Shown here piece after piece: positions 35,345-56,731 of a DNA stretch of 64,000 nucleotides. Where the stretch lies: contig NNSG01000001.1 of assembly GCA_002256485.1 (NCBI GenBank), forward strand, positions 128,017 to 192,016, in the 5' to 3' direction. The position numbers and the translations under genes were made by a program. The first letter of the stretch is position 1. Every line of letters begins with the position of its first letter. Below the pieces are notes generated by a model that worked only from the letters and a program-made list of their open reading frames with translations, did no database searches and had not been told where the DNA came from. This stretch comes from Fidelibacterota bacterium 408169 (GTDB lineage: Bacteria > Fidelibacterota > Marinisomatia > Marinisomatales > TCS55).

Positions 35345-37078
35345 ATGAAAATAAAAACTATATTTTTCTTTCTTATCATTTCTTCACTTCTTTTTGGAGC
35401 AAGCAAAAAAGCACTTAGTGAATTAATAACATCCACTACGTGACCATCGTGTGCTGCTGCGGAGCAACAGCTTCACAATTATACAGATCCAAATCACTCT
35501 TCTTATGTTGGAGATGATGCAGAATCAAACTGGATTCAAATACATTACCATGTATGGTGGCCTGCACCTGGAAACGATCCTTTTTATTTATATAATTCAT
35601 CATTGAACCAAACACGTAATAATTATTACGGTAATAATTATACACCCCATATGTTCACTGGAGGTGATGATTCTGGTTCCAGCCCGTCAACTTGGCGGTC
35701 CCATGCACTGAATATGATAGGAAATGAAACACCTGTTACGATTGAATTAAGTGGTGGAATTGATGGTTATGATGTGGATGTAAGTGTGCTTATATCAAGT
35801 GAATATGATATATCTTCTCAACAGACACGATTATTTATTGTTTCAACAATGGATTCAGTTTATTATGATGGATATAATGGCCTTTTACATCATCAAGCTA
35901 CAATTATTGAAATGTTAACATCCAACTCTGGAGATGATATTACTTTGGACGGCACCAATGATGTGCAACTGAATTACGAATGGACAATGGACTCTAACTG
36001 GCCAAACTTGAGTACGGTTCAATGGGATATCAGCGATTTGAATATTGTAGCATTCGTTCAGAATTATTCAACCAAAGAAGTCTATCAAGCTGAAATTGCT
36101 CGAGCAAATGAAATGAATAATGATACGGATGAAGATGGCATTGATAATTCAGATGATAATTGTCCAGACGTTTATAATCCTGATCAAGCAGACATTGATG
36201 GAGATAGCGCAGGCGATGCATGCGACGCGTGCGATAATTTAAATGTGTATGTGCTAGGAAATGTAACAGGTGATGTAACTGATAATGCTCCTGTTATTGA
36301 TTTATTTGATGTTTTATATTTATTGGATTTAGTGCTTGATGATAATTATCCTGGTTGTTCAGTGGAAGCTGCAGATTATAATATTGATGGAATTATTAAT
36401 TATTTAGATGCCATTTTTATCGTTCAGGATATCTTAAATCCCGGCGATCTAAACTCCAGAGAATATGACGCTGGGGCTGGTCATCTAGAATTAGGAAGGA
36501 CAGAAGAAAACACACTAATTACATTTTCTAATGAACTGCAGATAAGTGGATTTCAAATTGATTTAGATATTGATGCAATTGCAGAAATGGATCAATTAAT
36601 TGTTCCTGATGGATGGATTATTAAAACACATCAAAATAATGATCGTTTACGAATTGTTGGTATTGACTTTTCCGGACAAAATCCACAGAATGAAATTAAT
36701 CTCACTATTCCATGTAATGTAAATTCCATTGACGAAATAAACGCATGTTGTCCAACCGGTCAACAGATTAATTTCAGTAATAAATCAACAATTGATCGAA
36801 TAGAAGTTTCTCAAAATGTTAGCTTGGGTCAATTATATCCGAATCCATTTAATCCTGAAATTACAATTCCCATATCCCTGCCTTATGAAATGTCCACTCA
36901 AATTAAGGTGTATGATGTTCAAGGGAGATTGGTAGAAACATTGGTAAATAATGATCATATGACTGCCGGTCATCATGTTGTGAAATGGAATGCTGAATCA
37001 TTTTCATCCGGAATTTATTTTATACGTATTCAAACTCAAATGGGTTCGGATGTTCGAAAAGCATATTTAATAAAATAA
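35345..37078 (+). CDS. Omp28-like secreted selenoprotein with UxxC motif (TGA at 35441)
   Basis: Reading from ATG 35345 and taking the in-frame TGA at 35441-35443 as selenocysteine gives 577 residues: signal peptide (about 1-19), an Omp28/thioredoxin-like domain with motif U33-P-S-C36 preceded by LITSTT, then HYHVWWPAPGNDPFY and NNYTPHMFTGG typical of that family, calcium-type repeats (DTDEDGIDNSDDN at about 260), a dockerin-like pair (about 308-363) and a T9SS-like end (LYPNPFNPE at about 496). The frame is otherwise open. A hairpin follows the TGA. Conventional calling begins at TTG 35603 and loses the active site. A nonsense mutation is the alternative, but TGA at exactly the first position of a CxxC site, plus a second selenoprotein at 54726, argues against it. 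Confidence 0.82.
35452..35469 (+). promoter_or_regulatory. candidate bacterial SECIS hairpin of the Omp28-like selenoprotein
   Basis: TG.TGCT (35452-35458) pairs with AGCA.CA (35463-35469), with one C-A mismatch and loop GCGG (35459-35462). The loop starts 16 bases after the TGA and begins with G, within the distance and loop rules I recall for bacterial SECIS elements. The stem is short, so the support is moderate. Confidence 0.5.
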
Positions 37079-52333: not shown

Positions 52334-54571
52334 ATGAAACGATTTTATACATCCATACTAATTGTATTTATCATTGTAAGCAATTTTACCCATGCTGAAG
52401 CCATTGCCAGGGTCATGAAAACTAATGGGGATGTTACTCTCAAAGGTTTAGGAAAAGCATCATTTTCTACTGATGTAAAAGCAGGGCACGGAATTAATAA
52501 TGGTGATGCCATTCGAATCGGTGAAATTGGCTTCGCCGTAGTTATCTTTATCGACGACCGTTCTGTTCTCAAAATTAGAGAAAATACTGAATTTCAATTT
52601 ATTGATTCACCGAGTACACGAACAATTGATATTGAACAAGGTACCATTTTCAACAAAGTGTCGAAGCAACGCGATAAGACGTTCAGAGTAGAAACACCTG
52701 TCTCAGTTGCATCTGTAAAAGGGACAGAATTTGCTGTTGTCTCTGATCCAGCAGGAATGGATCAATTTTTCTGCCAGGAAGGTAATTTTGACGTTTACAA
52801 TTCAGTAAGCGGCCAAACAATCAATGTTCAGCCCGGACAGCAAGCTATTTCGAACGCCTTAGGAACATTGACAGAACAACCCTTTAGTCCCGATGATTAC
52901 CCCGAAGACCCTGATGCGGATTTTGAAGAAAGTGAAGAGGAAACAGAAGAAGAAGCCGAAGAGGAGGAACCGGAAGAAACGGAAGAAGAGCCTGAGTCAG
53001 AGGAAGAAGTAGAAGAAACGGAAGAAGAACAGGAACCAGAAGAGACTGAACCAGAGCCTGAAGAACAACCGGAAGCACCTGAAGAAGCAGCTCCTGAAAC
53101 AGCTCCAGAACCGGAAGGACCGTTCAATATGGGATTAGGTGTGGGTTCTGTCACAATTGATGGTGTTTTGTACAATCAGTTAGCATTACGTCCCGAATTC
53201 AATATTGGTAAACTAGGCATTGGATTGGATTTGGTGCTCTATATTGATAATGAAGGAAATATCCGCCCAAATGAATGGGATGTAAAAAATGATCCATCAG
53301 TAATAGTGGATAAAATTCTATACCTCCGCTGGGGACAAAAGGAAGATCCTTTTTGGGTAAAATTTGGTTCATTGGATAACGTGACTCTCGGTTATGGTGG
53401 ATTGCTCATGGGTTATTCAAACATGATGGAATTTCCAACCGTCCGTCAATTGGGAATCAACACTGGTGTGAATTTTGGTAATTTCGGAACTGAATTATTC
53501 ATGTCAAACCTCAAGGATTTTTCAAGAGGAGGAACCCTGCTGGGATTAAGAGGAAGTTATAAAGTATCTAAAGCGTTCCCATTAACTATCGGCGCAAACT
53601 TTGTGATGGATGTTAATCAATTTAGCGGTTTGAAAGATAATGACGAAGATTCCTATCCGAATATTTTTGATGATTTTCCTGATGATAAAACAATATGGAA
53701 TGATACAGATGGTGACGGTATACCTGATCCTCATTCCGGAGTTGATTCTACATCGTGGGACATTGATGCCAATGGAAATAATATTTATGATGCGGATGAA
53801 ACTGACTTGGGACTCAAAGGTACTCCATTCAGTATAGAAGATAATTCAGCATCAGCAATGGGGTATGCGTTTGATATTGGATATCCGGTATTTAGCAATA
53901 AAATGGTTTCCTTGAATGTATATGCCGAGTTCAATTTTTTAAATATTCCTGAAGCCGGTGAACAAGGAACTGAATTTTACAGGGAAGCAAAAAGTGGAAG
54001 CGGCTTTTCTGTGCCGGGTGTACGCATGAGCCTGTTCAAATTCTTAAATGTGAGTTTCGAATATCGTTTGAAGAGCGGATATTATGTGCCACAATTCTTT
54101 GATCAATCTTATGATATTACTCGGGTAACACCCATTTATACTGAAGATCAAACATATATATTTACGAAGGACATGATGTTATTTGCCGATTCAACAATGA
54201 ATGAAGATTTAAGCGGATATTTTGGGTCATTGAGCGCAGATATTTTTGGTTTTGCCAGTATTAGCGGATCCTTTGCAAATATGACGTCTGAATCAGATAC
54301 AGTTCAAAGTTTTATGGCTGCATTAAACCTCAATGCGGATAAAATTCCTAAATTGAGTGTTGCTACTGCATACTATCAGCGTAATAATGATTTAAATCCC
54401 TTTGATTTTGCGAATCCATCGCTCAATACTGTTTTAGGTTACAGGTTGGGTTATGAAGTCAGTAAAGGTGTAAGTGTTATTTGGGACTTCCGTCAATTCT
54501 ATCGTGATGACGGTACTGGCGAACTTGAACCCGTTAAGCAAACAACCATTGAAACAGCATTTGACTTTTAA
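52334..54571 (+). CDS. FecR-domain protein with acidic linker and barrel-like C-terminus
   Basis: A 745-residue exported protein. Signal peptide (about 1-22), a FecR beta domain (about 25-165, with VKAGHGINNGDAIRIGEIG and ETPVSVASVKGTEFAV), a Glu/Pro-rich low-complexity linker (about 190-260), then about 480 residues of amphipathic beta strands with an Asp-rich calcium-like insert (DTDGDGIPDPHSG) and a C-terminal Phe, like an outer-membrane barrel. FecR domains usually regulate iron uptake through sigma factors; a secreted FecR fused to a barrel suggests a surface-sensing or peptidoglycan-contact role. Its stop overlaps the next gene by one base (TAATG). Confidence 0.7.
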   Translation: MKRFYTSILIVFIIVSNFTHAEAIARVMKTNGDVTLKGLGKASFSTDVKAGHGINNGDAIRIGEIGFAVVIFIDDRSVLKIRENTEFQFIDSPSTRTIDIEQGTIFNKVSKQRDKTFRVETPVSVASVKGTEFAVVSDPAGMDQFFCQEGNFDVYNSVSGQTINVQPGQQAISNALGTLTEQPFSPDDYPEDPDADFEESEEETEEEAEEEEPEETEEEPESEEEVEETEEEQEPEETEPEPEEQPEAPEEAAPETAPEPEGPFNMGLGVGSVTIDGVLYNQLALRPEFNIGKLGIGLDLVLYIDNEGNIRPNEWDVKNDPSVIVDKILYLRWGQKEDPFWVKFGSLDNVTLGYGGLLMGYSNMMEFPTVRQLGINTGVNFGNFGTELFMSNLKDFSRGGTLLGLRGSYKVSKAFPLTIGANFVMDVNQFSGLKDNDEDSYPNIFDDFPDDKTIWNDTDGDGIPDPHSGVDSTSWDIDANGNNIYDADETDLGLKGTPFSIEDNSASAMGYAFDIGYPVFSNKMVSLNVYAEFNFLNIPEAGEQGTEFYREAKSGSGFSVPGVRMSLFKFLNVSFEYRLKSGYYVPQFFDQSYDITRVTPIYTEDQTYIFTKDMMLFADSTMNEDLSGYFGSLSADIFGFASISGSFANMTSESDTVQSFMAALNLNADKIPKLSVATAYYQRNNDLNPFDFANPSLNTVLGYRLGYEVSKGVSVIWDFRQFYRDDGTGELEPVKQTTIETAFDF

Positions 54572-54729
54572 TGGGTAAAGTAACGATTGATGATGGGGAA
54601 AAAACTGTTTATCGCTATGATGCCAGTGCTAGAACGTTTAAAAATGCAGCAATTCTATTATTCACTCTTGCAGCAGGGATGGTTGTTGTAGCACTAATTT
54701 GGCTTTATAACTTTAAAGGAATCCAATGA
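54571..54729 (+). CDS. 52-residue single-pass membrane protein
   Basis: Starts MGKVTIDDGEKTVYRYDASA, with one hydrophobic helix at about residues 26-46 and a short tail. It is fused by stop-start overlaps on both sides: TAATG with the FecR gene and ATGA with the SelW gene. That places it as a membrane component of the same operon. No known family. Confidence 0.65.
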   Translation: MGKVTIDDGEKTVYRYDASARTFKNAAILLFTLAAGMVVVALIWLYNFKGIQ

Positions 54730-54956
54730 ATATAAGTATCGAATACTGCAACGTCTGAAACTATTTACCACGAGCGGCCGGTCTGGCCAGCGAACTTCTG
54801 AAGAAATACGGTACAAAGATTACACAATTATCCATGCTGCCTTCAGATGGTGGTGTATATGAAATCATCAAAGATGGTTCATTGATTTTTTCTAAAAAGA
54901 AACTCGATCGTTTCCCGGATGATGGTGAAATTGTCAACCTTATTGAAAATAACTAA
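54726..54956 (+). CDS. SelW/Rdx-family selenoprotein with CxxU motif (TGA at 54756)
   Basis: Reading from ATG 54726 through the in-frame TGA at 54756-54758 as selenocysteine gives 76 residues: MNISIEYC-NVU-NYLPRAAGL, then LIFSKKKLDRFPDDGEIVNL. This is the SelW/SelT/SelH (Rdx) thioredoxin-like family: Cys8-x-x-Sec11 is its redox site, and YxPRA and the IFSKKK...GRFP-type end are family hallmarks. The full length fits. Members are thought to act as thiol redox proteins. A strong hairpin follows the TGA. Conventional calling misses it because it stops at the TGA. It overlaps the 52-residue gene by ATGA and the next gene by 38 bases. Confidence 0.92.
54774..54791 (+). promoter_or_regulatory. bacterial SECIS hairpin of the SelW gene
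   Basis: GCGGCC (54774-54779) pairs with GGCC.GC (54785-54791) with one bulged A, and the loop is GGTCT (54780-54784). The loop starts 22 bases after the TGA. The same GGUCU sequence sits in the apical loop of the classic E. coli fdhF element, where its G and U contact SelB. This is strong support for selenocysteine insertion. Confidence 0.85.
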
Positions 54957-55719
54957 ATTCATTCTTCCTGCCTTTTTTTGTTCAATCATAAGTGGACAAG
55001 AAGGTGAAATCATACCCTTAAGCCAAAAAGTAGGTTTAACTCTCGACGCTGAAGAGAATTTATTTTATAACGTAATTTTAGATATTGACGGTTTTGAAAG
55101 TGCTCAATTCTATGAGGTTAGTACCAAAACGGTTATAGCCCGGATTTCCTTCGTACAGTATAGTCAACAGAAAACATCGAAGCGAAAATATAATATGATG
55201 GACTTTTTACGTATGAAAGAGGCAGTGGATGTTCAGCCGGTCATTACTGCAGAAGATCGAAAATTAATCCATGAAAATTTAACCTATTTACAAACAGATG
55301 ACATATTGAGTGAAATTCAGGAAAATCAATATGTGACGATCCATCATCGTAGTGGCAGACGTATTCGAGGTACATTGAAATCTTATGGTGAAAAAATGCT
55401 GACCATTCAAACACCCGTTTCTCTTGAGCAGATTCCTATTTGGGATATGGAGTCCATTTCCTATCGGGAAGGAATAATGAATCGCAGCAAGTGGAAATTT
55501 CCATTATATGCATTTTCAGCATTAGCTGGATTAATTTTAGCTGAGAGTTGGAATGAACAAACACGTCCGTATATTGACAGCGTTTGGCATTATCGCTTTT
55601 TAGGGTCCATGGCAGGATTATTGGCAGGAAGTGAAGCATTTCAAACGTTTAATGTATTAACTTCTCCCAAGACATTTTTTGCACTAACACCGGAAGAAAT
55701 GGATAGATTAAAGGAGTAA
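54919..55719 (+). CDS. exported protein, unknown function
   Basis: A 266-residue protein with a leader (LLKITKFILPAFFCSIISGQ) and a mixed body; the segment QENQYVTIHHRSGRRIRGTL is reminiscent of small beta-barrel (LSm/SH3-like) folds, and there is a hydrophobic stretch (FPLYAFSALAGLILA) near residue 195. Two start codons (54919 and 54922) lie inside the end of the SelW gene (38-base overlap); either is possible. It belongs to the FecR/SelW operon. Confidence 0.6.
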   Translation: MMVKLSTLLKITKFILPAFFCSIISGQEGEIIPLSQKVGLTLDAEENLFYNVILDIDGFESAQFYEVSTKTVIARISFVQYSQQKTSKRKYNMMDFLRMKEAVDVQPVITAEDRKLIHENLTYLQTDDILSEIQENQYVTIHHRSGRRIRGTLKSYGEKMLTIQTPVSLEQIPIWDMESISYREGIMNRSKWKFPLYAFSALAGLILAESWNEQTRPYIDSVWHYRFLGSMAGLLAGSEAFQTFNVLTSPKTFFALTPEEMDRLKE

Positions 55720-56460: not shown

Positions 56461-56731
56461 TGGTCGTGCTAGATGGGGAGGTAGCGGTGCCCTGTAACCT
56501 GCAACCCGCTATAGCAGGATTAATAGCCATAGTGCGGCTTATGCTGTGCTGCTGAAAAGCAGTAAGTGATGTTGAAATTTCAACCCATCGCAATGAATGC
56601 CCACTAAACTCCGTCAGGCCCGGAAGGGAGCAGCGGTAAGTGCCGTATTCGTGTGCCGATGGATACTTGGAATGGAGTTAACTGCTTCTTGGATGTTGTT
56701 TCCAGGTGGGTCAAACTATGGTGCACGGCCA
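56461..56731 (+). ncRNA. ffs: signal recognition particle RNA, large type
   Basis: The ends pair (TGGTCGTGC with GCACGGCCA). Near the 5' end GGGGAGGTAGCGGTGCCCTG and the following loop belong to the Alu-type domain. The SRP54-binding apical helix is seen at about 56612-56635 (GTCAGGCCCGGAAGGGAGCA). At about 271 bases it is the large bacterial form, like that of Firmicutes, not the 4.5S form. Upstream of dnaX-ybaB-recR, a conserved order. Confidence 0.93.

Follow-up and report, generated by a model that had tools for sequence, protein, structure and literature searches.

The SECIS of E. coli fdhF has a GGUCU apical loop a short distance after the UGA and a U that bulges from the 5' strand of its upper stem. 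SelW-like selenoproteins with a bacterial SECIS were described from the Sargasso Sea in 2005 (PMC1088965). In the Global Ocean Sampling data, the SelW-like family was the most numerous one, with 427 selenocysteine forms versus 56 cysteine homologues, and SelW-like proteins and SelD were the most widespread of the marine selenoproteins (PMC2398784). SelW-like proteins in organisms that use selenocysteine have few or no cysteine homologues (PMC1794560). Finally, a 2016 survey classified three SAR406 (Marinimicrobia) genomes as having an "orphan SelD" (PMC5029168).

The DNA that we analysed (64,000 nucleotides, hereafter the window) comes from the MAG of an uncultured Neomarinimicrobiota bacterium (2.47 Mb, 48 contigs, about 95% complete), and the features that we describe within it are all on the plus strand. 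From sequence comparisons, we are nearly certain that positions 54726-54956 encode a SelW-like (Rdx) selenoprotein in which the UGA at codon 11 stands for selenocysteine and a hairpin guides its insertion. Insertion at this codon is itself strongly supported. The UGA would be decoded as selenocysteine by tRNA-Sec together with SelB, and the guide would be a short hairpin with an RGNNU loop, about 18-30 bases 3' of the UGA and within the coding sequence.

The SelW-like gene and its in-frame TGA

The gene (54726-54956) ends with a TAA stop, and its initiator methionine is nearly invariant across 22 relatives. The predicted product is MNISIEYCNVUNYLPRAAGLASELLKKYGTKITQLSMLPSDGGVYEIIKDGSLIFSKKKLDRFPDDGEIVNLIENN, with the predicted selenocysteine codon (TGA, 54756-54758) in the CxxU motif (CNVU). 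The first-pass annotation had described 76 codons with C8, TGA as codon 11, YLPRA, and an ATGA junction with the upstream gene, and all of these match the sequence. It had also said that normal gene calling would miss selW; indeed, a plain list of open reading frames under translation table 11 has none of 60 or more amino acids in this frame. A putative Shine-Dalgarno-like sequence (AAAGGA, 54715-54720) lies 5 bases 5' of the ATG.

Three family models identify a SelW-like protein, each above its cut-off: PF10262 (Rdx; 78.3 bits versus 22.6), TIGR02174 (61.3 bits versus 34.2), and NF041051 (96.8 bits versus 88, nearly full length). The redox motif C8-x-x-U11 is invariant in the 22 aligned relatives, and a profile built from these relatives matches, by sequence, solved Rdx/SelW chains (for example 3dex, 2fa8, and 2npb). 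We predict that the product is a small cytosolic oxidoreductase with a thioredoxin fold that acts on thiols or selenols, with CxxU as its redox centre; judging from the family, its role would be in redox chemistry.

Relatives were sought in 84,980 species genomes, and 49 were fetched, 48 of which include codon 11. That codon is TGA in all 48. Of the relatives with a name, Candidatus Neomarinimicrobiota come closest, and the TGA is also kept in Acidobacteriota, Myxococcota, Deltaproteobacteria, Planctomycetota, Eisenbacteria, bins labelled as Betaproteobacteria, and others. Within the phylum, 144 of 245 genomes have a SelW match, and every match that covers codon 11 holds one in-frame TGA. Homologues with further stops were the finding that the first-pass annotation thought would speak against a working gene; we found one additional stop in each of just 3 of about 140 phylum matches. 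No cysteine form of SelW was seen among the matches from these 245 genomes that cover codon 11, which agrees with the earlier report that such forms are few or absent (PMC1794560).

The hairpin 3' of the TGA

The candidate bacterial SECIS (54776-54788), which we studied by folding, covariation, and synonymous-codon tests, consists of two GGCC strands around a GGUCU loop (54780-54784). In the predicted stem, 54776-54779 pair with 54785-54788, and a bulged A separates these pairs from a possible extension that joins 54774-54775 to 54790-54791. The first base of the loop is the 22nd after the TGA, as had been claimed. Within the window, a stem and loop of this kind are found at this offset from just 2 of 2911 TGA triplets. 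The sequence of the window alone gives weak evidence for the hairpin. Its folding energy is no better than that of shuffled sequences (z-score +0.38), and when synonymous codons are drawn at random from local usage, 8.5% of the draws produce this stem and loop, since the codons for Ala-Ala-Gly-Leu-Ala readily give rise to the hairpin. A search of 54700-54960 against Rfam at a permissive threshold gave no match, and Rfam contains no SECIS model that fits this hairpin.

What we consider decisive is the comparison of 82 distinct sequences. A four-pair stem with an RGNNU-type loop is retained in 75 of these, versus a mean of 4.1 and a maximum of 9 across 400 draws of synonymous codons, with the caveat that the sequences are related and the counts are not independent events. 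Controls with the register slid gave no stems. The loop encodes Gly-Leu, Ser-Leu, Ser-Met, or Arg-Met, and the codons used are nearly always GGT CTG, AGT TTG, AGT ATG, and AGG ATG, respectively; the loop serine codon is always AGT and never TCN. Numbering from the T of the TGA, positions 21 and 33 form CG, GC, TA, AT, GT, or TG and are paired in 81 of 82 sequences (maximum of 52 if shuffled), and positions 24 and 30 form CG, GC, AT, or TA and are paired in all 82. Positions 26 (G) and 29 (U), which are the second and fifth bases of the loop, are invariant (82/82).

Several of the changes are clearly compensatory and are at synonymous sites, and the comparison indicates that the downstream hairpin is under selection. 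The first-pass annotation had called it a "textbook SECIS" and had proposed looking for its conservation in related genomes. The stem and loop are conserved among relatives, with compensatory changes, so the call holds, although "textbook" was too strong a word for what a single sequence could tell. The comparison also supplies a clean RGNNU hairpin signature that could be used to find SelW-like genes automatically.

Selenocysteine machinery and a second selenoprotein gene

The genome that contains the window has a tRNA-Sec with a UCA anticodon (64.6 bits), SelB (358.7 bits) and SelA (517.5 bits) in adjoining genes on contig C48, and SelD (405 bits; G000:C47:44127-45053, locus L100), which is itself a selenoprotein, with a single in-frame TGA that places selenocysteine at its catalytic position (GSGUACK). 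The first-pass annotation had suggested looking for selC in the assembly, and it viewed the absence of all of this machinery from a complete genome as grounds for dropping its proposal that the organism inserts selenocysteine. The proposal now draws support from the protein family, the conservation of the TGA, and the presence of selC, selA, selB, and a selenocysteine-containing selD.

Across the phylum, we tallied tRNA-Sec by hand, and we counted matches with E of 1e-9 or better. A tRNA-Sec is present in 105 of the 144 genomes with SelW and in 43 of the 101 without it (Fisher p = 2.8e-6, which is only indicative since the genomes are related). This leaves 39 of 144 SelW-bearing genomes with no clear tRNA-Sec. 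When 10 of these were searched again, only G031 had a match just above the cut-off, and at 48.1 bits, versus about 60-75 bits for clear cases, it is probably another tRNA. Since nine of the ten genomes encode full-length SelB, the best reading is that the missing tRNA-Sec reflect losses in assembly or detection; the tenth, which is 86% complete, has no full-length SelB. In the search of 245 phylum genomes, family f9 yielded neither a match to SelW nor a clear tRNA-Sec, and in the four f9 genomes that were tested, SelB did not score above the cut-off. It is likely that this family lost the selenocysteine trait within the Neomarinimicrobiota. (Family f9 is a streamlined lineage with genomes of 0.4-1.0 Mb.) These results indicate use of selenocysteine by this organism and, as judged from the phylum-wide search, by the majority of Neomarinimicrobiota lineages. 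Because we see the pathway phylum-wide, the "orphan SelD" of the SAR406 genomes was perhaps due to incomplete genomes.

We scanned the window for recoded TGAs and found many shadow frames besides two known genes, selW and the gene at 35345-37078. The latter encodes an Omp28-related, predicted secreted and T9SS-sorted protein with the motif TUPSC (TGA at 35441). It matches NF045500, "Omp28-related selenoprotein", with E = 1.2e-51 and 176 bits, which is under the model's cut-off of 200. In lineages that use selenocysteine, the TGA of Omp28-related genes is followed by a hairpin, mostly UCCGC-GGA-GCGGA, with a predicted energy of -7 to -12 kcal/mol; in family f9, the codon is TGC or TGT and there is no hairpin (0 to -0.8). 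A cysteine copy from genus g1 (G107) has a fold of -2.5. At G107:C19:49681-52129 in this genome, which is from the same genus as the window's, the cysteine copy is followed 1.6 kb on by a fragmentary match to the selenocysteine form, and the two could be a pair of paralogues. The assignment of the 35345 gene to NCBI's "Omp28-related selenoprotein", a family that was already named, is well supported by sequence comparison. The selW gene had been put forward as strengthening the case for 35345 as a selenoprotein gene, and that case is now also backed by the contrast between selenocysteine and cysteine forms, the hairpin, and the similarity to NF045500.

Could the TGA in selW have another explanation? 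TGA is one base away from TGC and TGT, and the window alone cannot distinguish a selenoprotein gene from an ordinary CxxC Rdx gene whose cysteine codon has become TGA, either in a pseudogene or through a sequencing error. However, the same TGA is found at 48 other loci from many phyla, and the matches from within the phylum all have it where they cover this codon. The frame is intact afterwards, and the hairpin 3' of the TGA is under selection. Given the conservation of the TGA, and as we did not find intact cysteine copies in close relatives, we rejected this explanation, which is exceedingly improbable. Alternatively, UGA might be reassigned throughout the genome, for example to tryptophan or glycine, and this too would account for an in-frame TGA that is read through. 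But TGA also serves as a stop codon here, as it ends the 52-amino-acid gene upstream (54727-54729); the genome has the full selenocysteine pathway; and the TGA of the Omp28-related gene aligns with cysteine codons from lineages in which SelB was not found. With the conservation of the codon, the selenocysteine machinery, and the use of TGA as a stop all against it, we also rejected reassignment and see almost no chance that it is correct.

Gene neighbourhood and comparison with known systems

The selenoprotein gene selW lies between genes that overlap it. Upstream are a conserved neighbour that encodes a FecR-domain, predicted outer-membrane protein (52334-54571) and the gene for a small membrane protein (54571-54729; 52 amino acids), which ends in TGA and shares ATGA with selW. 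Downstream, a gene at 54943-55719 starts with TTG inside selW and encodes a protein of no known family that is predicted to be secreted (its N-terminus starts like a signal peptide). The order of the four genes is the same in related loci L009-L012, with the 52-amino-acid gene conserved beside selW in these and recognisable in L016 and L017. The FecR and 54943 neighbours persist down to about 40% and 28% identity (L013-L017 and L019). Also in the window is a bacterial large SRP RNA (56464-56728, 149 bits).

It is a reasonable inference that translation may be coupled within this cluster. One could go further and suppose that selenocysteine insertion is real but that its conserved role is mainly regulatory, with the decoding of UGA gating ribosomes into the 54943 gene and making its translation depend on selenium. 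In favour of this idea, three genes form one run, with the ATGA junction on one side of selW and a 14-base overlap on the other; the offset of the downstream overlap is identical in L009-L011, and the neighbour is retained in L012-L017 and L019; and termination at the UGA would halt ribosomes 184 bases 5' of the TTG start. On the other hand, the SelW protein is conserved in other phyla outside of this gene order, and a GGTGA-like motif lies 5' of the TTG. We consider a mainly regulatory role to be unlikely. It might also be, because selW overlaps both of its neighbours, that the decoding of its UGA works as a valve that senses selenium and controls translation of the secreted protein encoded downstream in this conserved Neomarinimicrobiota cluster. 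This seems quite unlikely to us, and if true, it would be a regulatory use of selenocysteine decoding.

As a selenoprotein gene, selW resembles those for the SelW-like selenoproteins of marine bacteria: it encodes CxxU in an Rdx-family protein, and its SECIS lies just after the UGA and has a small apical loop that contains G. We found no functional difference from them; what differs here is the Neomarinimicrobiota genome and the fixed neighbourhood. NF041051 describes a SelT/SelW/SelH family (seleno)protein, and its name refers to Campylobacterota, unlike this host. As in the fdhF SECIS, the apical loop is GGUCU and is at a similar short distance from the UGA, but here an A on the 3' strand, rather than a U on the 5' strand, is predicted to bulge, and relatives of selW also use AGUUU, AGUAU, and AGGAU loops. 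Overall, the selW gene has all of the testable defining features of the long-known SelW-like family: the member is new, but the family is known.
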